A stretch of DNA of 64,000 nucleotides from Rhodobacter sp. SGA-6-6 (lineage in GTDB: Bacteria > Pseudomonadota > Alphaproteobacteria > Rhodobacterales > Rhodobacteraceae): assembly GCF_011043545.1 (NCBI RefSeq), contig NZ_JAAKGP010000002.1, positions 496,001 to 560,000 of the forward strand. Direction: 5' to 3'. The translations under genes were made by a program, and so were the position numbers. Position 1 is the stretch's first letter. The number at the start of each line of letters is the position of its first letter. The notes under the pieces are model-generated. The model ran no database searches. It was given only the letters and a program-made list of their open reading frames with translations, and was not told the DNA's origin. This document shows positions 3,912-15,897 of this stretch, piece by piece.

Positions 3912-6233
3912 TCAGCGCCACTGCTTCTCTTCCAGCGTCCATCTGGTGCCGGGCAGCGGGCCGTCCTTGACGAAGGCCTCGACCACATTGGCCAGCACTT
4001 TCGCTGCGCTGTTGTCGAAGCCGTTGGCGGGCAGCGCCTGGCCGTAACCGATGGAGCCGGTGCAGAACACCGCCCCGTCGTTCGGCGCGGTGAAATAGGT
4101 CATGTCGCCCCGGATCCGGTAATCGAGCGAACCGACCAGCCCGGCATAGGCGTAGAGCAATTCCTCGGTCACCAGAACGTAATTGTCGGAATGGCCCCCG
4201 GTCGCCGCGATGATCTTCGTATGCGGCGGCGTGCCGAGGCTCAGATCGTAGCGGTCCAGCTCGATCCCCCCGGCGGCGCCATAGGCGAGGCCCTGATCGC
4301 CGATGATCTCGCCCTCGATCCCTTCGGTGATCCAGGACGCGGTGCGGTGCCAGGCGTCGGGCATCTTGCGATAGGGCGAGGCGGTCTCGAACCCTTCGCC
4401 GATGAAGCCCACCCCGGTCAGCTTCTGCGGCGCGCGGCCGCGGTTGCGCCAGAGGCCGCTCTTCTCGCCGGTGGTTTGCAGGTAATGCTCGCCCGGCTTC
4501 GCGGCCCAGGCCCGCATCCCCGAGTCGAGTTTCCGCACCTCCATGCAGGCGGGGTTGTCGCGGGCGAAGCCGACGACCCAGTAATAGCCGTTGCCGCCCA
4601 TGTAGATCAGCCGTCCGCCGCCGGCGACGAAATCCTCCTGCGCGTCCAGCATCCGTTCCGAGACATATTCCGGGTGGGTGCCGGTGATCACGCAGTTGTA
4701 GGGCCTGATCGCGTCCAGCCCCTCGCGGTCCAGATCCTCGTCGGTGATGAAATCGCAGTCGTAGCCCTGATGCCGGATCCAGGCCGAGATCGACAGATCC
4801 GCCGGGAACTGCCAGGTGATGTTCATGCTCGACATCCGGTATTTCGGCCGCATGTTGATCACCGGCCGCAGGTAGGAGCTGAAGCAAACCCCGGCGCCGT
4901 CCTCGAAATGGTCGTAGGTGGACAGCCCGTATTCGCGGTGCTCGTAGGTCTCGATGTCGAGCTCGGTCACCACTGGCGGCTGGCCGGTCATCGGCTGGAT
5001 GATATGGGCGTCGAAGCTGAGGCTCTCGTTGCCATAGGCCAGGTAACTGGCGGTGGGGATCAGATAGCAGAGCTTAGCCGAGGGCTTCGCCGGGCGCACG
5101 ATGAAGACGATATATTCCTCGGTGATGCCGGTGCCCGGGCCGATGCGCAGCCGCATCGCGTAGATGCCGCTTTGCAGGTCGGACGGGATGGTGATGCGGG
5201 CAGTCTCGTCCCAGCGGCAGTCGGTCACCGCATCGGGGTGGAATTCGATGCCACCGTATTGGTCGGGCGCAAGGCGGAAGCAATCATCGCGCCCGTTCCA
5301 GTTGAAGCCGGTCATCGCGCGCACCGGATGGTTCACCCCCTCGGCGTGCAACCCATGCGGCCCGGCGTCGAACACGGTCTGGCCAACGCCGCGGTCGCTG
5401 TAGCCCGCAGTCGTGTCCCAATAGGCCAGGATCGCCGCCGCCTTCGGCTTCGCCCCGGTCTTGCAGGCGTCGAGCTCGGTGCGGTCGAGCACCCGGTCGC
5501 AGATCGCCGGGCGGTCGATCTTGCCGGCGTAAAGGTCGTTGACGAAATCTCCGCGCAGAAGATGGTGATCGCGCGCGCCGGCGATCAGGAACGGCACCGA
5601 AGCCACGTTCTTGTGGCGGAAGCGGAAGGTCTGGCGGACGTGGCTGGCATAGTCATGCGGCACCACCTTGCCCAGAAGCGAGTTGTAGCGGTTCGCCACC
5701 CCCTCCTGATAAAGCGTCGCCTTTCCGGTGGCCGGATCGAAGGAGGCGCCGACGAAATACCACATCCGGGCCACCAGCGGCAGCTCGGCGGTGACGTAAT
5801 CCACCTCCTTGCCATCGCCGACCCAGAATTCCAGATATCCCTCGGGATTGATCCCCAGAGCGAAGCCGGTGTTGTTCCTGGTGTCCCACCGCCCCAGCAG
5901 GGTCTGGCGCGCGCCCTTCTTCGGGATGGTGGGCCAGATGTGGCAGAACAGCGTGAACGGCCCCTCGACCGCCAGCCGGTTGTCGGAATCCTCGACCTGA
6001 AGGAAGCTGCCCAGCTGGGTGAACTGCTTCTTCACCTGCCAGGCGCCGTTCAACGGATGGGCGACCTCCTCCTCCTGAAAGCCGGGGCCGGCCTCATGCG
6101 CATCGCCATGGATCAGCCGGACCAGCTGCGCCTGCGCCTCGGATGCGCCGTCGCAGTTGACGTGGAAGGTGATCTCCTCGCCCTGTTTCACCGAAATCCG
6201 GTTGGCGTAACCGAAGATTTTCTGCTGAGCCAT
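3912..6233 (-). CDS. dmfA2: N,N-dimethylformamidase large (beta) subunit
   Basis: Large subunit (773 residues; family about 760) of N,N-dimethylformamidase, which hydrolyses dimethylformamide to dimethylamine and formate in the cytoplasm. The N-terminal third holds a LamG/lectin-like beta domain (about residues 90-255, from GPFTLFCHIWP); the C-terminal half is the DMFA2 catalytic domain. The characterised Paracoccus enzyme has a mononuclear iron held by two Tyr and one carboxylate. Plausible equivalents here are Tyr400 (or Tyr397) in SYLAYGNES, Tyr440 in GLSTYDHFED and Glu522 in GTHPEYVS; this assignment is my inference. The start at 6233 is one base after the dmfA1 stop, with AGGGAAG as ribosome site. 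Last gene of the transporter-enzyme operon. A different small amide as true substrate is possible. Confidence 0.9.
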   Translation of the reverse strand: MAQQKIFGYANRISVKQGEEITFHVNCDGASEAQAQLVRLIHGDAHEAGPGFQEEEVAHPLNGAWQVKKQFTQLGSFLQVEDSDNRLAVEGPFTLFCHIWPTIPKKGARQTLLGRWDTRNNTGFALGINPEGYLEFWVGDGKEVDYVTAELPLVARMWYFVGASFDPATGKATLYQEGVANRYNSLLGKVVPHDYASHVRQTFRFRHKNVASVPFLIAGARDHHLLRGDFVNDLYAGKIDRPAICDRVLDRTELDACKTGAKPKAAAILAYWDTTAGYSDRGVGQTVFDAGPHGLHAEGVNHPVRAMTGFNWNGRDDCFRLAPDQYGGIEFHPDAVTDCRWDETARITIPSDLQSGIYAMRLRIGPGTGITEEYIVFIVRPAKPSAKLCYLIPTASYLAYGNESLSFDAHIIQPMTGQPPVVTELDIETYEHREYGLSTYDHFEDGAGVCFSSYLRPVINMRPKYRMSSMNITWQFPADLSISAWIRHQGYDCDFITDEDLDREGLDAIRPYNCVITGTHPEYVSERMLDAQEDFVAGGGRLIYMGGNGYYWVVGFARDNPACMEVRKLDSGMRAWAAKPGEHYLQTTGEKSGLWRNRGRAPQKLTGVGFIGEGFETASPYRKMPDAWHRTASWITEGIEGEIIGDQGLAYGAAGGIELDRYDLSLGTPPHTKIIAATGGHSDNYVLVTEELLYAYAGLVGSLDYRIRGDMTYFTAPNDGAVFCTGSIGYGQALPANGFDNSAAKVLANVVEAFVKDGPLPGTRWTLEEKQWR

Positions 6234-6234
6234 C

Positions 6235-6597
6235 TTACTTCCCTGTCAAGTCTTTGATGTGGTTCAGAAACACCGCATGGCGCGCCTCGCGCAGGCTGGC
6301 GTAGCTTTCGCTGCCCACCCGGGCGGGCGGCACCCTCGGCTTGCCCGACAGCCGCACCACGCGGTAGCACCCGCCCGCCTCTTGCAGCACGGCATACTGC
6401 TCGTGCAGCGGGCGGGTCTGGCACCAGTTCAACAGGCGCGTCAGCGGCTCGCTGTGATGGCCCTCGGGCTTTCTGCGGTGTTCCTCGATCAGCGCGTCGC
6501 TCAGCACCGACAGCAGGTAGCTGCGGGTGATCTTGTCGAAATTCGCCCGCACATGCAGGTCGGCATCGGCGACGGAGGTGGTGTCTGCTTCGCTCAT
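6235..6597 (-). CDS. dmfA1: N,N-dimethylformamidase small (alpha) subunit
   Basis: Small subunit of 120 residues that pairs with DmfA2 in the dimethylformamidase heteromer; it is helical and carries no catalytic metal in the known enzyme. Recognised from its position directly before dmfA2 and from the pattern FDKITRSYL ... IEEHRRKPEGHHSE ... YASLREARHAVF. The family is usually about 130 residues. Gaps to the genes on both sides are one base, so translation is coupled. A second, clearly homologous copy of this sequence forms the C-terminus of the permease encoded just upstream. Confidence 0.88.
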   Translation of the reverse strand: MSEADTTSVADADLHVRANFDKITRSYLLSVLSDALIEEHRRKPEGHHSEPLTRLLNWCQTRPLHEQYAVLQEAGGCYRVVRLSGKPRVPPARVGSESYASLREARHAVFLNHIKDLTGK

Positions 6598-6598
6598 C

Positions 6599-8251
6599 TC
6601 AGGATTCCATCAGGTCATGGACGCGGCGCATGAAGACGGCGTGATAGCCCTCGTCCACCGTTGCGTATTCGCGGTCATCCACCAGGCGGGGCGAGACGCC
6701 GCGCTGTCCCGAAAAGGCGATAATCTTGTAAGGGCCTTCGGGTCCGGCGCGGTGGAGCGCATATTTGTCCTCCATCTTGGTGCGGCGGAAGTAGAGCAGC
6801 ACCCGTTCCAGCGCCTCGCTGTGCTGGCCGAGCGGCTGGCGACGGTGTTCCTCGATGATCTCGGGGGTGATCAGCGTCTTGAGGTAATCGCGCTGGATCT
6901 TGTCGAAGCGGCGGAAGTAGAGCTGATCCTTGTCGTCGATCTCGGTCGCTTCCTCGGGCAGGGCTTCGCCGCCCTTCTCGGTCCGGGCCGAGCGCCATTC
7001 GCCGCGCTTCTTCTCGCGCCAGGCGTTGAACTGGCGTTTGATCCCGAAATAGCCGTTGTTGAGGAACAGGACGGCGGCCAGCATCAGCGCGCCGATCATG
7101 AAGTGCCGCATCGGCCCCCAGTCGAGCAGCACCTTGTCGAGGAACACCACCACCAGTGTGCCCAACACCGCGCCCTCGGCCTTGCCGATGCCGCCGATGG
7201 CCAGCATGGCGAGGCCCAGAAGCACCGTGTCGAAGCTGAAGATCGAGAAGGCCACGCCGCGGTATTGCGCGGCATAGAAGCCGCCGATGAAGCCGAGCGC
7301 GACCGAGGTGATCAGGAAGATCACGATCCGCGCGCGTTTGTAGTCCACCCCGCAGGCGGCGGCGAAGGCCTCGCGCTTTTCCGGGGCCATGCGCAAGATG
7401 CGGCCCAGCCTCTTGCCGTTGATCAGCCGGAACAGGGACAGCGCGGCCAGCAGCAAGAGAAGCGAGGTGTAATAGCCGACATGCGATTGCACCATCGGAT
7501 CCCAGGCTTCGCTGATGAAACTGTCGGCGCCGTAAAGTCCGCCCGAGGCCGAGCCGAACTCGCGCGAGGTAGTGAAGAACACCCGGCACAGCTCGTTCAG
7601 CCCGAGCGTCAGCAGCGCATAATAGAAGCCGTCCAGCCGCAGCGCCGGAAGCGCGATGGCAAGGCCGAATACCAGCCCGACAACCGATCCGATCACCGGC
7701 AGCACATACCAGGGCACGCCGTAAGTGATCGACAGCCACGAGGTCAGGAAACCGGCCGTCCCCACCACCGCGTAACTCGCCAGCGAGAAGATGCTGGCGG
7801 TGCCGATGATCAGCGTCCAGCAGACGTTGATCGCGGCGAAGATGCCGAAGATCGTGCCCGCGGTCAGCAGCGTGTTCTGCATGTTCGACGGGAACAGCAG
7901 CGGCGCGATGGCGAGGAAGGCCATGCAGAGCAGCCAGTAGACCGGCCGGCGGTCGAGGATCTTCTTCTCGGCGATGGCGGTCTTGCGGTTGTAGATCCCG
8001 GTGACGTGCAGCATGTTGCGCCGGGTGGGCCACCAGCGCCAGCGGGTCCACAGCTTTTCGCCGTGGTTGGGCCAGATGATATAGTGCTTCAGCCGGCCGA
8101 CCTTGTAGGTCGGCACCTTGTAGCCGGTGGCCTTGTCCCAGTTCTCGCGGATGTCGGGAACCTCGACCGAAGGCGCGCTCTGGTTGCCGGTCGCGGTGCC
8201 CCAGGCGGCCAGCGGGTTGATCCAGGTGTAGTCGGATTTCTGCGTGGTCAT
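6599..8251 (-). CDS. LivM-type ABC permease fused to a DmfA1-like C-terminal domain
   Basis: Protein of 550 residues. Residues 1-100 are a cytosolic extension with many Trp and Arg. Residues about 104-405 are a branched-chain amino acid/amide (LivM) permease with 8-10 membrane segments and the ATPase-coupling loop near 281-310. A charged linker (about 410-445) leads to residues 446-550, which repeat the dimethylformamidase small subunit: FDKIQRDYL, IEEHRRQPLGQHSE, REYATVDEGYHAVF. In a hand alignment about 39 of 101 positions equal DmfA1. The start ATG overlaps the LivH stop (ATGA). Ordinary LivM proteins are 320-430 residues and lack this tail. Inference: the channel docks the DmfA2 enzyme at the inner membrane face; it could instead compete with DmfA1 or be a remnant duplication. 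Confidence 0.88.
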   Translation of the reverse strand: MTTQKSDYTWINPLAAWGTATGNQSAPSVEVPDIRENWDKATGYKVPTYKVGRLKHYIIWPNHGEKLWTRWRWWPTRRNMLHVTGIYNRKTAIAEKKILDRRPVYWLLCMAFLAIAPLLFPSNMQNTLLTAGTIFGIFAAINVCWTLIIGTASIFSLASYAVVGTAGFLTSWLSITYGVPWYVLPVIGSVVGLVFGLAIALPALRLDGFYYALLTLGLNELCRVFFTTSREFGSASGGLYGADSFISEAWDPMVQSHVGYYTSLLLLLAALSLFRLINGKRLGRILRMAPEKREAFAAACGVDYKRARIVIFLITSVALGFIGGFYAAQYRGVAFSIFSFDTVLLGLAMLAIGGIGKAEGAVLGTLVVVFLDKVLLDWGPMRHFMIGALMLAAVLFLNNGYFGIKRQFNAWREKKRGEWRSARTEKGGEALPEEATEIDDKDQLYFRRFDKIQRDYLKTLITPEIIEEHRRQPLGQHSEALERVLLYFRRTKMEDKYALHRAGPEGPYKIIAFSGQRGVSPRLVDDREYATVDEGYHAVFMRRVHDLMES

Positions 8252-9129
8252 TGTTCGCGCGCCTTGTCGAGAAGCCCCGAGATCCCGCGCGGCCGGACGA
8301 CCAGCACGGCGATGATGAAAAGGAACTGCGTCATCAGCACGTATTGCCCGCCGAGGAATTCGTTGGTCAGCGCCTCGACCAGACCCAGCAGGATCGCGGC
8401 GATCACCGCGCCCTGGACCGACCCCAGCCCGCCGCAAAGCGCGATGGAGACGCCCTTGATCAAGGGCGTCAGCCCGTTGAACGGCGCGATGTAATAGGTC
8501 TGCGACAGAAGCACCGAGGCGAGGCCGCCCATGGCCCCCGTCACCGCCATGACGTAGATCCCGGTGCTGCGGATGCCGATGCCGACGATAGATGCCGCGT
8601 GCGGGTTCATCATCATCGCCCGGATCTCCAGTCCCCGGCGGCTGCCGCGCATCCAGCGCACCACCAGAAACAGCATCAGGGCCGAACAGACCACGATGCC
8701 GATCTTGTCCGAGGTGAGCCGCACGCCGAACAGGTCCAGCGTCCAGAAACCGAAGAGTTCCGGCAGCGACTTCGGCCGCGGGCCGAAGAACATCAGGAAC
8801 GACTGGCTGCCGATCAGGCTGATCGCCAGCGTGGCGATCATGCCGCGGGTGGTGAAGTTCGGCTTGTCATGCAAGGGGATGAACACCACGAGGCAGACCA
8901 GAACCCCAGCCGCCGCCCCCATGGCTATCCCCGCAGCAGCGATCAGCGCGGGATGGTCGTTGATGTGCTGCGCCACCAGCCAGGCGCCGTAGCCCGCGAA
9001 GGTGAAGACGAAGCCATAGGCCAGGTTGATGAGCCCGAGGCTGGACCAGGTGATCGAGACCGCGATGGCGATGAGCCCGTAGATGCAGGCCACGGTGATC
9101 GCATTGGTCAGGACGAAAAAGATATCCAC
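8248..9129 (-). CDS. LivH-type ABC transporter permease
   Basis: Inner-membrane permease of 293 residues in the branched-chain amino acid/urea/amide uptake family. It shows about eight hydrophobic segments, the start MDIFFVLTNAITVACIYGL, the GLINLAYG motif after the first helices, the coupling segment around NPHAASIVGIGI and the closing GLGSVQGAVIAAILLGLVE typical of LivH. Its stop overlaps the start of the fused LivM-type permease by four bases, so the two channel halves are made together. Within a dimethylformamidase operon the likely cargo is a small amide, not an amino acid; this is inferred from context. Confidence 0.88.
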   Translation of the reverse strand: MDIFFVLTNAITVACIYGLIAIAVSITWSSLGLINLAYGFVFTFAGYGAWLVAQHINDHPALIAAAGIAMGAAAGVLVCLVVFIPLHDKPNFTTRGMIATLAISLIGSQSFLMFFGPRPKSLPELFGFWTLDLFGVRLTSDKIGIVVCSALMLFLVVRWMRGSRRGLEIRAMMMNPHAASIVGIGIRSTGIYVMAVTGAMGGLASVLLSQTYYIAPFNGLTPLIKGVSIALCGGLGSVQGAVIAAILLGLVEALTNEFLGGQYVLMTQFLFIIAVLVVRPRGISGLLDKAREQ

Positions 9130-9171: not shown

Positions 9172-9879
9172 TCAGCGCTCTCCAAGGCGCGAGGCCGCCG
9201 AAGCTTCGCCCTTCAGCTTGCCCGCATGCATCCCGATGATGCGGTCGACGCGCCCCTCCAGCAGGGCCACGTTCTGCTCGGCGATGAACATGGCGCTGCC
9301 CTTGAGGTCGATCTGCAAAAGCGCATCCATCACCGCGCTGCCGATCTTGGGCGCAAGGCCCAGGGAAGGCTCGTCGGCGAGGTAGAGCCGCGCGTCGGTC
9401 ATCAGCCCGCGCCCGATCGAGACCATCCGCCGCTCGCCGCCGGACAGGCGCCCGACCGGGGTCTTCATCAGCTTCCTGAGCGGCTGGAAGATGTCGAGAA
9501 CGCGTTCCTTGCGTTCCTTGCGGGTCCGCCAGGCCTCGGGGGTGAAGGCGCCGCTGTCGAGATGCTCCTCGACCGTCAGGCCGTTGAAGATCTCGTCGCC
9601 CTGCGGCATGATCGCCAGCCCTTGGCGCACGATCTGATGGGTGTAACGGCCCGGTCCCTGGCTGCGGGTGCGGCCGATCTGCTTTCCCGCCAGTTCGATG
9701 GACCCACGCTGCCAGCCGGTCAGCCCGGCGATGGCATAGAAGAGCGTGGTCTTGCCGTGCCCGTTCAGCCCGACGATCCCCACCCTTTCCCCGGCATTGA
9801 TCACCAGATCGAGGTCGTGAAGGACACGCAAAGGCCCGTAGCCGGCCGAAAGGCCCTCTACTTTCAGTATCTCTGACAT
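9172..9879 (-). CDS. LivF-type ABC transporter ATPase
   Basis: Cytosolic ATPase subunit of 235 residues. Walker A is GLNGHGKTT, the signature is LSGGERR and Walker B is LYLADEPSLGL, all intact, with the LivF-style N-terminus MSEILKVEGLSAGYGPLRVL. The start at 9879 follows AGGGGAAACC and gives the normal LivF length; longer in-frame readings run through the LivG gene. It should pair with the LivG-type ATPase to power the two permeases. Gap of 42 bases to the LivH gene. Confidence 0.88.
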   Translation of the reverse strand: MSEILKVEGLSAGYGPLRVLHDLDLVINAGERVGIVGLNGHGKTTLFYAIAGLTGWQRGSIELAGKQIGRTRSQGPGRYTHQIVRQGLAIMPQGDEIFNGLTVEEHLDSGAFTPEAWRTRKERKERVLDIFQPLRKLMKTPVGRLSGGERRMVSIGRGLMTDARLYLADEPSLGLAPKIGSAVMDALLQIDLKGSAMFIAEQNVALLEGRVDRIIGMHAGKLKGEASAASRLGER

Positions 9880-9914
9880 GGTTTCCCCTGGAATGGCTGC
9901 GCGAAGGCGGCCGG

Positions 9915-10643
9915 TCAGTGGTTTTCGAAATAGGCTTCGCGCACGGCAGGGCTGTCGATGATCTCGGCCAGCTCGCCCTGCGCGATCACCACGCCCGCAT
10001 CCATCACGATCACCCGGTCGGCGATGGATTCCAGCAGCTCGATCCGATGCTCGACGATCAGCACCGCCACGTTCATCTCTTTCGAGAGCATCCGCAGGAT
10101 CTGGTCGATCTCGTCGATCTCGGCATTGATCAGCCCCGCCGCCGGCTCGTCCATCAGCAGCACCTTCGGCTCGCGCATCAAGAGACACGAGAGCAGCAGC
10201 TTGCGCCGCTCGAAGGTCTTCAGCAGCGCGGTCGGCGTGCTGTGCGGCGTGGTGAAATTCACCAGTTGCGCGCCGTATTCGGCATCGAACCGCGTCAGAT
10301 AGGGACGATAGGCCTGCCGCGCCGCCTTGAAGCTCTCGCCCACCGTCAGTTGCTCGGGCACCAGCGGCGTCTGATAGGTCCGCCCGATCCCCAGCCGCGC
10401 CCGCTCGAACAGCGGAAGACGGGTGACATCCTTCCCCTGATAGCGGATCGAGCCGGTCTTGGGCATGTAGCGGCCCGAGAGCATCTCCAGCAGGCTGGTC
10501 TTGCCGGCGCCGTTCGGGCCGATGATGCCCAGAACCTCGCCGGGGCGCAGGTCGAAGCTGATGTCCGACAGGACCTCCCGCCCGCCCAGATCAAGCGAGA
10601 GGTTCCTGCAGGAGAACAGGATCTGTTCATCCCATGCTGTCAT
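9915..10643 (-). CDS. LivG-type ABC transporter ATPase with altered signature motif
   Basis: ATPase subunit of 242 residues. Walker A (GPNGAGKTS), Q-loop (GRTYQTPLVPEQ), Walker B with glutamate (VLLMDEPAAG) and switch histidine (VEHRIE) are all present. Where LivG proteins carry LSYGQ/LSGGQ followed by RRLEIARAL, this one reads LLKTFERRKLLLSCLL: the Ser and Gly of the signature are absent although the frame is continuous. One of the two ATP sites formed with LivF would therefore be degenerate. First ATPase gene after the binding protein, 15 bases behind its stop. Confidence 0.87.
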   Translation of the reverse strand: MTAWDEQILFSCRNLSLDLGGREVLSDISFDLRPGEVLGIIGPNGAGKTSLLEMLSGRYMPKTGSIRYQGKDVTRLPLFERARLGIGRTYQTPLVPEQLTVGESFKAARQAYRPYLTRFDAEYGAQLVNFTTPHSTPTALLKTFERRKLLLSCLLMREPKVLLMDEPAAGLINAEIDEIDQILRMLSKEMNVAVLIVEHRIELLESIADRVIVMDAGVVIAQGELAEIIDSPAVREAYFENH

Positions 10644-10658
10644 CTGACCGGACGCCCC

Positions 10659-11981
10659 TCAGCTCCACCACGGCGCGGGCCGCAGCGTGGATTCCGCGAT
10701 CTCGTTCGGCCAGACGATCTTGTGTTCGCCGTCCTGCACCTGGACGAAAAGCTGCGCCATGCCCTCTTCCAGCTTTGCCGCCTGGTTGTCGAAACCGTTG
10801 TCGGGGTAGTGCAGCCCTTCCTGGCGTTCGTTGTTCATGTTCATCATGCCGCAGACGCCGCGGTAGGGATTGGCGCGGATCCAGGCGCAGTTGGCGGCGA
10901 AATCCTCGGGATTGCCGGTTGCCTCCCAGACGAGGCGCAGATACTGCACGATGTCATAGCCGTTGCCGGTGTAGACGAGGCCCATGTTGCCCACGTATTC
11001 CGGGTAGCGTTCCAGGTATTTGTGCCGGAAGGCCTGCCCGGTCTCGTCGCCGTAGACGCCGAGGACGGTGCTCCAGCAGAAGCCCTCGGTCGCGCGGCCG
11101 CCCAACTCCAGGAACTCGGGCTGCGACGGACCGTATTGCAGATAGACCAGGGAATCCGGCACCGGATCGGCGGCGAACTGCTTGCAGAAGGCGGCATATT
11201 CCGCCGCGACCCAGTGGTCGATCATGATCGCCGCGGCATCCACCTCTTTCAGGCGGCGGATCACCGGGCTCCAGTCGTTGACCGGGAACTGGATGTCGGT
11301 CACTTCGGCCAGCTCGAAATCGTAGTTCGGGATCGCCTCACGCGCGGCCTTGAGGATGGTCTGGCAATAGGCGACCTGCTCGGCCACTATATGGATCTTG
11401 CGGTTCTTCGGCTTCCAGACCCCGGTTTCCTCCATCTTCTTCAGCCACAGCGGATAGGTCCAGCCGTAGTTCACCTCGGACGGGTCGGTCTGGAAGACGT
11501 GGGAATATTTCTCGGGGTTCTCGCGATAGGCGTCGGTGGCGGCGCGCTGCGTGTTGCCCTGGACATAGGGGCATTTGTATTTCGCGGATTCGTCCATCGC
11601 CGGGATCGGCGCGAAGATGAACGAGTTCGAGATCGCATGGACCTTGCGGTCGATACAGGCCGCGATCGACTGGCGCGCGCTTTCCGGCGACAGCTTGTCC
11701 ACGTCGGCGACGAAGATCTCGATCTCGCGACCGAGCACGCCGCCCGCGGCGTTGATCTCCTCGACCGCCAGCATGGTGCCGTTGATATGGTCGGTGTCGT
11801 CCGCCACGCCGTAGGGGGTGGAGAGCGAGGCCGGAACCCCGATCAGGATCTTGTCGCTGGTGCCCTGCGACAGGGCCGGGGTGGCGAGACCGGAGGCCGC
11901 AGCGCCCAGCGAGAGTTTCACGGCGGTGCGGCGGGTCATCCGCAGCCCGCCGGGGGCGGTGCGGAACAGGGGCGTCTTCAT
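10659..11981 (-). CDS. amide/branched-chain amino acid ABC transporter binding protein, Tat-exported
   Basis: Periplasmic binding protein of 440 residues (Peripla_BP_6 fold, related to LivJ, UrtA, FmdD and AmiC). The N-terminus carries a twin-arginine signal: MTRRTAVKLSLGAAASG with a likely cut after TPALS, so the protein is folded before export. The mature part opens with KILIGVPASLSTPYGV and has the GTMLAVEEINAAGGVLGREIE segment of the family. The start at 11981 follows a strong AAGGAG; Met15 (11939) is an alternative. It heads the operon for transporter and dimethylformamidase. The likely ligand is an amide such as dimethylformamide (context inference). A cytosolic relative is encoded at 14680. 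Confidence 0.87.
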   Translation of the reverse strand: MKTPLFRTAPGGLRMTRRTAVKLSLGAAASGLATPALSQGTSDKILIGVPASLSTPYGVADDTDHINGTMLAVEEINAAGGVLGREIEIFVADVDKLSPESARQSIAACIDRKVHAISNSFIFAPIPAMDESAKYKCPYVQGNTQRAATDAYRENPEKYSHVFQTDPSEVNYGWTYPLWLKKMEETGVWKPKNRKIHIVAEQVAYCQTILKAAREAIPNYDFELAEVTDIQFPVNDWSPVIRRLKEVDAAAIMIDHWVAAEYAAFCKQFAADPVPDSLVYLQYGPSQPEFLELGGRATEGFCWSTVLGVYGDETGQAFRHKYLERYPEYVGNMGLVYTGNGYDIVQYLRLVWEATGNPEDFAANCAWIRANPYRGVCGMMNMNNERQEGLHYPDNGFDNQAAKLEEGMAQLFVQVQDGEHKIVWPNEIAESTLRPAPWWS

Positions 11982-12373: not shown

Positions 12374-13093
12374 ATGTCCTGCAAGATGAGCATGATGGAT
12401 CGCGCTCCTGACCTCCGCTCGCCGCTGACGATTCTGATCGCCGACGACCACTGGGTGGTGCGGGAATCGCTCAAGCAGGTGGCGCAGGGGCTGGACAGCA
12501 ATCTGCGGATCGAAGAGGCGGGCGGCTTCAACGAGGCGCTGGCGGTCCTGCAGGATAACCCGGACGTGGGGCTTCTGCTGATCGATCTGGTGATGCCGGG
12601 CTTCACCGAGATGGAAGGGCTGCGGCTGATCCGCAGCAACTACCCCTCGATCCCGATCGTCATCGTCTCGGTGCATGAGGATCCGAACTATGTCCTGCGC
12701 GCGATCCAGCACGGGGTGATCGGCTATATTCCGAAGTCCTCGGGGCCCGAGGAGATCCAGCACGCCCTGCAAAGGGTGCTGGCAGGCGAGGTCGCCTTCC
12801 CCCGCGACCTGATCGCCCGCAGCTGGAGCGAACAGCAGCCCGCTCCCGCGGCACCGTCCGCCACCGACGTCGCCCGCGCGGGCCTCAGTCGCCGCGAGAG
12901 CGAGATCCTCGTCCTCCTGGGCCGGGGATGTTCGATCCAGGACACCGCCGAACGGCTCGACATCAGCCGCCAGACGGTGCGGGTCCATCTTGGCAACGCG
13001 ATGCGGAAGCTGGACCTGCGCACCCGCGAGGCTGCGATCCGCTATGCCGTCGAGAACGGCGAGGCGCTTGCCCAGATGCGCGACCGGGCATGA
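12374..13093 (+). CDS. NarL/FixJ-family response regulator
   Basis: Two-domain transcription regulator of about 239 residues. The receiver domain has the acidic pair IADDH (24-25), phospho-acceptor Asp71 in LLIDLVMPG and Lys121 in GYIPKSSG. A linker leads to a LuxR-type helix-turn-helix (about 176-232: LSRRESEILVLLGRG, DISRQTVRVHLGNAMRKL). The start is uncertain: ATG at 12374, 12386, 12392 and 12395 are all in frame, and 12386 has the better-spaced AAGGA. The kinase gene follows with an ATGA overlap. It lies divergent from the dmf operon, which it probably activates (inference). Confidence 0.88.
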   Translation: MSCKMSMMDRAPDLRSPLTILIADDHWVVRESLKQVAQGLDSNLRIEEAGGFNEALAVLQDNPDVGLLLIDLVMPGFTEMEGLRLIRSNYPSIPIVIVSVHEDPNYVLRAIQHGVIGYIPKSSGPEEIQHALQRVLAGEVAFPRDLIARSWSEQQPAPAAPSATDVARAGLSRRESEILVLLGRGCSIQDTAERLDISRQTVRVHLGNAMRKLDLRTREAAIRYAVENGEALAQMRDRA

Positions 13094-14610
13094 GCGCCCC
13101 CGCGTCCGCGCACCATGCCGCCGCGGCGCTGGAAAACCTTCGGCTTCCGGTCTCCTACTGGTCGCCAGATCTGCGGCTTCTGTCCTGGAACCCCGCCTTC
13201 GCCGAACGGTTCAACTGCTTTCCCGCCGGCCTTCCCTCCGGCATCACCCGGGGCCAGTTCATCGACGCGGTGGAACGCGCCGGATTGCTGGTGCAAATCG
13301 AAACCCAATCCGATGGAGAGAAGGAAGCGGCGGGGGCGCCCACGCTTTATTTCTCGGACGGCAGCATCTACCGGCTGGAAAGCTGGCAAGCGCCAGATGG
13401 CGCTTGGACCGCAATCTGTCTCGACATAACGACTGCGCAGCGCAACGAGCGGGCGCTGCGCAAGGCGCGCGATGCTGCCACCGCCGCCGACCAGAGCAAG
13501 TCGCGCTTCCTGCGGGCGGCAAACCACGACCTGCGCCAGCCGCTCGCGGCGTTGAAGATCCTGATCTACAGCTGCATCGGCGCCCAGGACGAGACCGAAC
13601 GCCAGCAGGCGCTGCACGCGATGGAAGTCTCGGTTGCGATCATGGAGGATTTGCTCGGCGCGCTGCTGAACATCGGGCAACTCGATGCGGGCCGCATCCG
13701 CCCCTCGATCCAGACCTTCCAGATCTCGGCCATCCTCGAACGCCTGCGCATCCAGTTCGATCACCAGGCCCGCGAGAAGGGGCTGGAGCTGCGCATCATC
13801 CCCTCGACCGCGGCGGTGATCAGCGATCGGGTGCTGCTGGAGCGCATCCTTTCCAATTTCGTCAGCAATGCCATCCGCTACACCGAGGTCGGCCGGGTGG
13901 TCATCGGCTGCAAGCAGGCTGGCGGGCAACTGCAGGTCCATGTCATCGACACCGGCCCCGGCATCGCGCCCGAGTTCCGCGAAGAAATCTTCGAGGAATT
14001 CTTCCGCATCTCGAAACACCAGGACAAGCGCCGCCATAGCCTGGGCTTGGGGCTCAACATCTCGCGCCGGCTGGCCGAGATTCTCGGACATCGTATCCTC
14101 TTGCGCAGCCATCCGGGCAGGGGCTCGGATTTCGCCATCGAGATGCCGGTGGGCAACATCTGGCACAGCACCATCGGCGAACCCGAGATCAGCGAACAGA
14201 TCGGCGGCGAGTTTTCCGGCCTCGCCTGCCTGTTGCTGGAGGACGACCCTCATGTCCGCGCAGCGCTGGCGGCGCTGTTGGAACGCTGGGGGATCGCGGT
14301 GCTGAACCTGGCCGACCTCGGCGACATTCCCGCCAGCCTCGCCGCGCTGGAACGCGCGCCCGACATCATCGTCACCGACTACCGGCTGAACCGTGAATAT
14401 CTCGGCACCGAGGTGGTGAACGAGGTCAACGACCTATTGGAAAAGCCCTGTCCGGCACTGGTGATCACTGCCGACACCGGGCCCGAGCTGATCGCCGGCA
14501 TCCGCGCCCAGGGCTATCCGGTGCTGATCAAGCCGGTCGGTCCGCCGGGGCTGCGGGTGATGATGCACAACCTTCTCTTCGAGCCGGAGGCCGTTCCCGA
14601 ACTGAACTGA
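13090..14610 (+). CDS. soluble hybrid sensor histidine kinase with receiver domain
   Basis: Kinase of 506 residues. Residues 15-115 resemble a PAS fold (VSYWSPDLRLLSWNPAF). The dimerisation helix carries the phospho-accepting His146 in RAANHDLRQP. The ATPase domain shows NFVSNAIRY, DTGPGIA and LGLGLNIS. A C-terminal receiver (about 376-495) has LLLEDDPHV, Asp430 in IIVTDYRL and Lys481. No signal peptide or membrane helix is visible, so sensing must be cytosolic. ATG overlaps the stop of the response regulator gene. Position suggests it works with that regulator and with the binding-protein-like sensor encoded next. Confidence 0.88.
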   Translation: MSAPASAHHAAAALENLRLPVSYWSPDLRLLSWNPAFAERFNCFPAGLPSGITRGQFIDAVERAGLLVQIETQSDGEKEAAGAPTLYFSDGSIYRLESWQAPDGAWTAICLDITTAQRNERALRKARDAATAADQSKSRFLRAANHDLRQPLAALKILIYSCIGAQDETERQQALHAMEVSVAIMEDLLGALLNIGQLDAGRIRPSIQTFQISAILERLRIQFDHQAREKGLELRIIPSTAAVISDRVLLERILSNFVSNAIRYTEVGRVVIGCKQAGGQLQVHVIDTGPGIAPEFREEIFEEFFRISKHQDKRRHSLGLGLNISRRLAEILGHRILLRSHPGRGSDFAIEMPVGNIWHSTIGEPEISEQIGGEFSGLACLLLEDDPHVRAALAALLERWGIAVLNLADLGDIPASLAALERAPDIIVTDYRLNREYLGTEVVNEVNDLLEKPCPALVITADTGPELIAGIRAQGYPVLIKPVGPPGLRVMMHNLLFEPEAVPELN

Positions 14611-14615
14611 CCAAA

Positions 14616-14639
14616 GCCGCCGGGCAACGACCCGGCGGC
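14616..14639 (+). terminator. hairpin after the kinase gene
   Basis: Perfect 9-bp stem GCCGCCGGG, loop CAACGA, CCCGGCGGC, starting 5 bases after the kinase stop and ending 40 bases before the next start. No T-run follows, so it may reduce or protect, not end, the transcript into the sensor gene. Confidence 0.4.
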
Positions 14640-14679
14640 CGCACATCGCAAAAATCATAAAAGCCGGGGAGGCAAGACG

Positions 14680-15897
14680 ATGCGCACTGATCCGATCCGC
14701 ATAGGCAGCATGGTTCCCCTGACCGGAACCTCGGCCAGCGACGGCCGCGAATTCCGCAACGGGCTGATCATGGCCGCGGACGAGATCAACGCCCGCGGCG
14801 GCATCATCGGCCGGCGGGTCGAGCCGGTCTTCGTCGATACCGGCAGCCAGACCGCCGAAGTGGTGGTGCGCGCAGCGCGCGGCCTGATCGCCACCCATGG
14901 CGTCAGCGCGATTATCAACGGCTACAACATCGGGCCGCAGAATTCGGAATACGAGCCGATCGCCGATGCCGGGATCATCTACATCCACCACAACACGCTG
15001 TTGCAGCATCACGACACGGTGGCCAGCGACCCCGAGCGCTATTTCGGCTGTTTCATGGGCGATCCGGCGGAATACTGGTATGGTCAGGGCTTCATCAAAT
15101 TCATTTCCTGGCTGCGCGACACCGGGCGCTGGAAGCCGAGGAACCGCCGCATCGCGGTGATCTCGGGACCGAAACCCTACAGCATCGTCATCGCCAATGC
15201 GATGGACGCCTGTGCGCAACAGTTCGGCTGGACCCCGGCCTTTCCGCCACGAATCATGCGCAGCCTCAAGACTGACTGGTGTGCACTTCTCGACGAAGTG
15301 CGTGTCCACGATCCGGCGGTGCTGGCCTTCACCCATTTCCACGCCGGGGATCTGGCAAAATTCCATCTGGAATTCATGCGCCGGCCGCTGCCGGTGCTGC
15401 TCTACCTGCAATACGGTGCGCTGCATAAGTCGTTTTCCGAGATCGTTGGCGCGCAGGGCCGCGGCACCATCGTAGGCACGATGATCGGCCTGTTGCGAGA
15501 CGAGCCCGGACGTCGCTTTACCGAGGCCTACAAGGCGCAGTTCGGCCCGCATTCCACCCCCGAGATCGGCTGCCAGCCCTATGTCGCGCTGCATCACTAC
15601 GCCATCGCCGCGGCGGTGGCAGGAGGCGTGGGCGATCCTGGCGATTTCGCGGCCAACCGCCGGATCGCGGCAGCTCTGCTTCAGCTCCCTTATCGCAGCG
15701 TGGCGGGGATGATCCGCTATCATCCGAAATGGCAGGCAGCCGTCCCCTATCCCGATGCCACCAGCGACCCCTCGATGGGCCTGCCGCATTTGTTCTATCA
15801 GTTGCACGACCCTGAGGATGCCCCCGCGCTGATCGCGCCCGAGCCCTTCGCCGATTCCACCTTCGAACTGCCGCCCTGGCTGGCGACGTCCTCCTGA
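14680..15897 (+). CDS. cytosolic amide-binding protein, AmiC/FmdD-like (no signal peptide)
   Basis: Protein of 405 residues with the Peripla_BP_6 fold: IRIGSMVPLTGTSASDGREF, GLIMAADEINARGGIIGRR and Tyr/Trp-rich ligand segments. It begins directly with the first beta strand after MRTDP; a strong GGGGAGG just upstream fixes the start, so there is no export signal. It matches the exported binding protein of the dmf operon at GRWKPRNRRI, LLYLQYG, GDFAANR and the C-terminal ADSTFELPPWL. Pseudomonas AmiC is a known precedent: a cytosolic member of this fold that senses amides for a regulator. Inference: it reports the internal amide level to the neighbouring kinase. No other transporter genes are adjacent. 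Confidence 0.82.
   Translation: MRTDPIRIGSMVPLTGTSASDGREFRNGLIMAADEINARGGIIGRRVEPVFVDTGSQTAEVVVRAARGLIATHGVSAIINGYNIGPQNSEYEPIADAGIIYIHHNTLLQHHDTVASDPERYFGCFMGDPAEYWYGQGFIKFISWLRDTGRWKPRNRRIAVISGPKPYSIVIANAMDACAQQFGWTPAFPPRIMRSLKTDWCALLDEVRVHDPAVLAFTHFHAGDLAKFHLEFMRRPLPVLLYLQYGALHKSFSEIVGAQGRGTIVGTMIGLLRDEPGRRFTEAYKAQFGPHSTPEIGCQPYVALHHYAIAAAVAGGVGDPGDFAANRRIAAALLQLPYRSVAGMIRYHPKWQAAVPYPDATSDPSMGLPHLFYQLHDPEDAPALIAPEPFADSTFELPPWLATSS

Follow-up and report, generated by a model that had tools for sequence, protein, structure and literature searches.

The closest described relative of the enzyme considered here is the dimethylformamidase (DMFase) of Paracoccus, DmfA1-DmfA2 (6lvb, plasmid pAMI2), a soluble enzyme with a free small subunit. 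According to the accessible part of its report, the large subunit alone is inactive, the entrance of the active site is formed by the large and small subunits together, and the enzyme works free in solution, where it is most active at 0.4 M DMF (PMC7686228). The 14 kb of pAMI2 examined carry 13 annotated features, none of which is an importer. A second Paracoccus dmfA1-dmfA2 locus is reported not to be linked to DMF use, in the available portion of that study (PMC4543880). A catabolic enzyme bound to a transporter is known from E. coli, where the accessible sections of one report describe allantoinase bound to a putative allantoin transporter as a transport metabolon, made of two separate proteins (PMC10163214).

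We analysed a stretch of 64,000 nucleotides from Rhodobacter sp. SGA-6-6 (contig NZ_JAAKGP010000002.1, positions 496,001 to 560,000), hereafter the window. It encodes a large subunit of the same family as that of the Paracoccus enzyme, with the same iron ligands, His and Asn, and small-subunit domains of the same family, the fused one with the same predicted fold. In contrast to pAMI2, these genes belong to an importer operon, and, unlike in the Paracoccus DMFase and the allantoinase metabolon, one small-subunit domain is the C-terminal part of the ABC permease chain itself. We found no description of such a permease-DmfA1 fusion in the literature searched, from which subscription papers were largely absent.

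Results

Organization of the Importer-Amidase Operon

The operon lies on the minus strand in the order LivK, LivG, LivF, LivH, LivM::tail, DmfA1, DmfA2. It opens with the LivK-type solute-binding protein of the importer (10659..11981), followed by the LivG-type ATPase (9915..10643), the LivF-type ATPase (9172..9888, its start chosen by hand inside a longer ORF) and the LivH-type second permease, identified by domain search and lacking a tail (8248..9129). The LivM-type permease with its C-terminal DMFase small-subunit domain (6599..8251, 550 aa) comes next; its frame is open from the ATG at 8251 to the stop at 6599-6601, as the initial annotation had stated. One base past this stop, at 6597, starts the free DmfA1-like small subunit (6235..6597, 120 aa), and the DmfA2-like large catalytic subunit (3912..6233, 773 aa) starts one base beyond the end of DmfA1.

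The importer is a complete five-gene LivKHMGF set, with a Peripla_BP_6 binding protein and BPD_transp_2 permeases, as in the importers of branched-chain amino acids, amides and urea. The membrane core of the fused permease carries Pfam BPD_transp_2 (PF02653) at residues 129-394 (E 2.6e-20) and, standing within a complete importer operon, can be assigned to the LivM type. It scores far below the NCBIfam cut-offs for LivM (51.2 bits, cut-off 366) and UrtC (44.5, cut-off 296.2), which implies a separate subgroup, whose substrate cannot be inferred from the family. Besides the tail, the permease differs from those importers by a conserved stretch of some 100 additional residues at its N-terminus (residues 1-95, window 8251-7967), which precedes the first membrane helix. 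In 39 permeases, 12 of the 95 positions of this extension are invariant; in the window it contains the motifs W.NPL and RWWPTRR, and the AlphaFold2 model has low confidence at residues 43-101.

On the plus strand, a divergent LuxR-type response regulator (12374..13093), which probably controls the operon, is followed by a hybrid histidine kinase (12928..14610, ORF as listed, start uncertain) and a second solute-binding-protein fold (14680..15897). The N-terminus of the latter has no export signal by eye, and the protein is possibly a cytoplasmic ligand sensor. We take the three genes together (12374-15897) to look like a cytoplasmic amide-sensing module resembling AmiC. Among the 58 fused loci examined, the cluster of the regulator and that of the kinase are each represented in 20. 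A neighbourhood search of the fused loci returned little besides importer genes and two-component regulators, and its output was swamped by antisense ORFs of the GC-rich DNA.

The Permease C-Terminus Is a Predicted DMFase Small-Subunit Domain

The tail (residues 441-550, window 6602..6931) matches the free DmfA1 with 45 identities and 67 positives over 115 positions (BLASTP, single comparison, E 6e-27), in line with the 39 identities in 101 positions counted earlier by hand. It also matches the small subunit of the solved DMFase, 6lvb_B (E 7.5e-9, residues 12-120 of a 123-residue query), which is the only solved protein that it hits at E 1 or better, while the free DmfA1 matches 6lvb_B slightly more weakly (E 6.4e-7). 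With E values of 6e-27 and 7.5e-9, a chance similarity between tail and DmfA1 was rejected. When fused and free domains, including the Paracoccus plasmid enzyme, were aligned in 47 rows, E41, L54 and F113 were invariant. No Pfam family exceeded its cut-off in a search with the tail, and no NCBIfam model matched it.

The same assignment is supported by structure prediction. The full permease was modelled with AlphaFold2 from an alignment of the window permease and 38 of 58 fused permeases (39 rows), with a mean pLDDT of 73.5 and a pTM of 0.59; the blocks of the tail reach a pLDDT of 72-88. In a Foldseek search of the PDB, the best match of the whole model was 6lvb_B (E 5.6e-5, TM-score 0.81 on the target, rmsd 2.2 over 118 columns), followed by its sister entries and then by ABC-importer permeases. 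The predicted tail thus shares the fold of the small subunit, helices with a short sheet. A lack of shared fold had been named in the initial annotation as evidence against its reading, and the model points to the opposite.

The Junction Is Conserved and the Tail Is Probably Cytoplasmic

The tail is joined to the membrane core by residues 401-440 (window 6932..7051), which contain the near-invariant stretch EKGGE(A/M)LPEEATE. Among 39 permeases, this junction was the most conserved of the four permease regions compared, with a mean pairwise identity of 0.787, 19 of 40 positions invariant and no gap cells, a pattern that would be expected if the spacing of channel and enzyme were important. In the model, residues 401-425 form a helix that continues the last membrane helix, at low confidence (pLDDT 41-54 in the junction blocks). 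The model has six helices before and four after the loop at residues 281-303, which is taken as the loop that contacts the ATPase in the cytoplasm. This would place both ends of the permease, and hence the tail, in the cytoplasm, according to a model of medium confidence in which loop and junction have a pLDDT of 41-57.

The Fusion Is Widespread and Accompanied by DmfA2

A one-genome-per-species collection was scanned with six peptide patterns, one of which lies within the tail and slightly biases the scan toward tailed loci. The permease::tail fusion was present in 55 of 57 related loci, in one of which (L062) a contig end cuts inside the tail. The other two comprise a permease cut before the tail, at residue 365, by a contig end (L091) and a chimeric fragment. 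The latter, L096 (Rhodopseudomonas sp. B29, 1-660), was considered as a tailless permease and rejected, because it runs into an antisense gene near the contig end; it is probably a chimeric or broken draft fragment produced by a misjoin. The genomes with fused loci include Methylocella, Methylopila, Hansschlegelia, Methylobacterium, Hyphomicrobium, Methylobacillus, Bradyrhizobium, Roseovarius and Burkholderiales.

Three architectures were distinguished. The commonest, type B (28/57), is permease::tail-DmfA2, where no free DmfA1 was found in the locus; one such locus, L081, has a gap of 1.2 kb before DmfA2. The window layout, type A (permease::tail-DmfA1-DmfA2), occurs in 13 loci, and type C (permease::tail-DmfA2-DmfA1-DmfA2) in 10. 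A free small subunit is thus encoded in 23 of the 57 loci, in 10 of them in a position other than that of the window layout. DmfA2 lies downstream in 51 of 57, that is, in every fetched locus whose contig reaches far enough, the other six being cut or chimeric; contig ends cut four before any DmfA2. Type A was otherwise seen in Pseudomonadota, and one type-A locus, L044, is in a record titled Oceanobacillus sp. HTM 045 (Bacillota), which we suspect to be mislabelled or a mixed assembly.

The fusion was also found in 26 plasmid records (E 1e-30), and every match reaches residue 550. Agrobacterium plasmids account for 21 of these, many being near-copies of one another; the gene is annotated as a branched-chain amino acid permease in 24 records, and no gene is listed in two. 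The 26 records are the same set as the 26 best plasmid matches to DmfA2 (at least 61% identity), and the next plasmid DmfA2 (52.6% identity) has no such permease within 9 kb. A second, diverged fused system of type B is encoded elsewhere in the Rhodobacter genome itself.

In genome surveys (E limits 1e-10 and 1e-8, at most 11 candidates scored per genome, so that weak matches may be missed), the fused system proved rare overall, any small-subunit domain occurring in at least 5 of 390 genomes of the order and at least 7 of 398 of the phylum, the own genome being in both sets. A search with the permease core (residues 93-430, E 1e-30) of 150 phylum genomes, including the own genome, matched nothing but the own genome's pair of fused permeases, and no close tailless permease was seen in this sample.

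DmfA2 Retains the Catalytic Residues, but Type-C Loci Keep an Altered Copy

Residues 5-764 of the window DmfA2 align to residues 5-763 of 6lvb_A (E 4.8e-170). The iron ligands, two Tyr and one Glu, are conserved (Y400, Y440 and E522, aligned to Y399, Y440 and E521 of the known enzyme), as are the catalytic H520 and N548 (H519 and N547).

These five residues were compared in DmfA2 frames longer than 690 aa, 65 from fused-system loci and 20 others, the latter including five fused loci in which the permease runs off the edge of the locus. Each of the 10 type-C loci (L069, L070, L072, L075, L076, L077, L079, L082, L092, L095) has one DmfA2 altered among these residues and another intact at all five. 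In eight of the altered copies, the first Tyr is replaced by Phe or Leu and the His by Arg; in the other two, Tyr440 is replaced by Cys. The altered copies group in a single clade (SH-aLRT 96, quick tree) in spite of their varying position in the operon, which suggests that an inactive large subunit has persisted through evolution. Such retention is consistent with a mixed dimer, or with a function in docking or regulation. The window, like the single-DmfA2 fused loci examined, showed no altered catalytic site. On Aminobacter sp. MDW-2 plasmid pMDW2 (L098), two adjacent DmfA2 genes accompany one fused tail, and the second has its Glu ligand replaced by Ala.

The Free DmfA1 Probably Derives from the Tail

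We then compared the two small-subunit copies. Between the window and each of two other loci (L040 and L041, respectively; two pairs, 111 tail codons), dN/dS was 0.051 and 0.065 for the tail, 0.318 and 0.240 for the free DmfA1, 0.085 and 0.084 for DmfA2, 0.107 and 0.099 for the permease core and 0.089 and 0.069 for LivH. Identity to the window across 14 type-A loci followed the same pattern, being 64-95% for the tail, 67-93% for the permease core and 68-94% for DmfA2, but 32-79% for the free DmfA1.

In a DmfA2 tree (quick search, SH-aLRT only), the 13 rows of type A are monophyletic (SH-aLRT 100) and fall inside the type-B diversity when the unfused relatives are placed outside. As the type-A loci fall within this tail-only diversity, the free gene looks like an addition. 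The tree of the small domains, from which repeat views of loci (L001-L003, L005-L008, L010) and the cut L062 were omitted, agrees with this in outline, but weakly, being based on 123 columns and midpoint rooting with long free branches. In it, all 15 type-A free copies group at 78/33 and 14 of them at 94/80, the type-C free copies group at 87/72, and the Paracoccus enzymes lie in an unresolved fork among the tails. The junction of the diverged copy in the own genome reads EKGGEVMPEEA, against EKGGEALPEEA in the first, and a single fusion event is the simplest account of this likeness. Hence, the free DmfA1 is probably a later added, faster-evolving duplicate of the tail, as judged from sequence comparison. 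The opposite order, in which the tail was copied from the free DmfA1, was rejected, being at odds with both the rates and the DmfA2 tree. The view that both copies are kept, in the layout of the window, applies to 13 of 57 loci; another 10 carry a free copy placed differently, and in 28 no free DmfA1 was found.

We also examined whole genomes with a domain profile (E 0.01), which could miss very diverged small subunits. The 32 genomes comprised those of 26 of the 28 tail-only loci (L057 and L084 left out), the own genome and five others. In 13, the tail was the sole small-subunit domain found; five of these are stated to be 99-100% complete, and the 13 include three isolates and five metagenome-assembled genomes. 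The other 19 contain one or more additional small-subunit-like domains, namely a second fusion, a closely related free copy, as in the own genome, or distant free copies. A distant partial match (profile 52-123) was seen in four genomes (G405, G414, G418, G422), in ORFs of 159-183 aa located 8-35 kb from the fused locus.

One long-branch DmfA2 inside the fused-system clade, L101 (Caballeronia insecticola p2), is paired with a free DmfA1 and has no LivHM importer in its vicinity; here, the small subunit may have been released from the permease.

Discussion

Considering the family and predicted fold of the tail, its strong purifying selection and the presence of DmfA2 in 51 of 57 loci, we think it quite likely that the fused protein is a bifunctional permease, being both one half of the importer channel and a DMFase small subunit that completes DmfA2 and holds it at the cytoplasmic mouth of the channel. 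The membrane part would form one half of the ABC importer channel, and the tail would serve as the cytoplasmic small subunit of a DMFase-type iron amidohydrolase, so that DmfA2, on binding the tail, would be completed and retained at the importer. Docking of DmfA2 by the tail, deduced from homology to the solved complex, appears well supported; activation would follow by analogy with the known enzyme. Since no separate DmfA1 was found in the commonest architecture, it is probably the tail that serves there as small subunit of the enzyme. Furthermore, if the same rules hold as for the known large subunit, which is inactive alone, then in a genome with no other small subunit DmfA2 could be completed only on the permease. 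The initial annotation had described the tail as a docking module for DmfA2; this stands as far as it goes, but the tail seems to be more than a bolted-on docking copy, and calling the permease the small subunit of the enzyme is the stronger and better-supported statement.

One LivH-LivM pair carries one tail, which would leave a second small-subunit site of an α2β2 enzyme for a free copy. In the window, this site is probably filled by the free duplicate of the tail, giving an inferred make-up of α2ββ′, and in type-C loci a second large-small pair would fill the other half. Several observations count against the proposal. The α2β2 symmetry of the known enzyme is awkward with one tail per transporter; the further small-subunit-like domains in 19 of 32 genomes mean that the tail need not be the sole possible partner there, and a free small subunit is encoded in 23 of 57 loci. 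The L101 DmfA2 occurs with a free DmfA1 and no importer, strain MDW-2 has two DmfA2 genes beside one tail, and the junction and the cytoplasmic loop are modelled at low confidence. A linked tail-DmfA2 model (pTM 0.77) matches the large subunit 6lvb_A (TM-score 0.90 on the target).

How far the coupling goes can be read in different ways. Direct hand-over of the imported amide, which the initial annotation had proposed, is plausible by analogy, as the active-site entrance of the published enzyme sits between the large and small subunits. Going further, importer and amidase may form an obligate membrane complex in which the permease contributes a part of the active-site entrance and import and hydrolysis are one vectorial step. 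An asymmetric enzyme, with one membrane-borne and one free small subunit or with one active and one inactive large subunit, would fit the single tail, and we put this forward as a tentative and somewhat doubtful extension. Tethering could also act without channelling, the fusion fixing stoichiometry and location while the substrate equilibrates with the cytoplasm. This has close to an even chance of being right and is compatible with the docking half of the proposed bifunctional permease: gene order and fusion require co-assembly and nothing more, and the known enzyme functions in solution, with its highest activity at 0.4 M DMF (PMC7686228, accessible part). The conserved junction of fixed length suggests, on the other hand, that geometry matters, though hand-over is not proved by it.

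C-terminal regulatory domains are known on ABC importers, and DmfA2 or its inactive paralog could bind the tail, sense turnover and gate the importer, instead of being fed by it. Such regulatory coupling finds its strongest support in the single clade of altered DmfA2 copies, to which each of the 10 type-C loci contributes. We nevertheless regard it as unlikely, because in the 28 loci with a single DmfA2 and no other small subunit beside it the tail is more simply a catalytic partner, and because the window and the single-DmfA2 fused loci examined have intact sites. As both copies are present in the window, and likewise in the 13 of 57 loci that share its layout, the free DmfA1 might instead do the work, the tail being a relic or decoy without present function in the window. 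The slower evolution of the tail (64-95% against 32-79% identity) and its dN/dS of 0.05-0.07 make this very improbable. As for an assembly or frameshift artefact that joined two genes, no point in its favour was found, and it can be practically discounted, since the same open fusion recurs in 55 of 57 loci, is carried by 26 plasmid records and is present in two copies in the own genome. The same survey takes up the earlier proposal to look for DmfA1-like tails across genomes, and speaks against a stop or frameshift between permease and tail.

The substrate is not fixed by family membership. The window DmfA2 also matches N-acetyl-(R)-β-phenylalanine acylase (8huy, E 8.7e-109), which belongs to the same large-subunit family and by name acts on another amide. 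PF11927 (HODM_asu-like), which we take to be linked to dimethylamine use, was found in 22 of 38 fused-system genomes, the own genome among them, compared with 32 of 200 phylum genomes (own genome in both), and was not found in the four Bradyrhizobium genomes searched. This enrichment is at most suggestive of dimethylformamide, and is confounded by a methylotrophic lifestyle.

Channelling between transporters and enzymes is usually argued from weak, transient contacts. If our reading is correct, nature would have coupled an ABC importer, in genetically fixed form, to the enzyme that starts a pathway, the transporter itself being an enzyme subunit, and channelling would be tied to one 110-residue domain and hence be testable. 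These amidases would also gain a cellular location and an unexpected subunit, which would otherwise be missed in expression studies of DmfA2 homologs.
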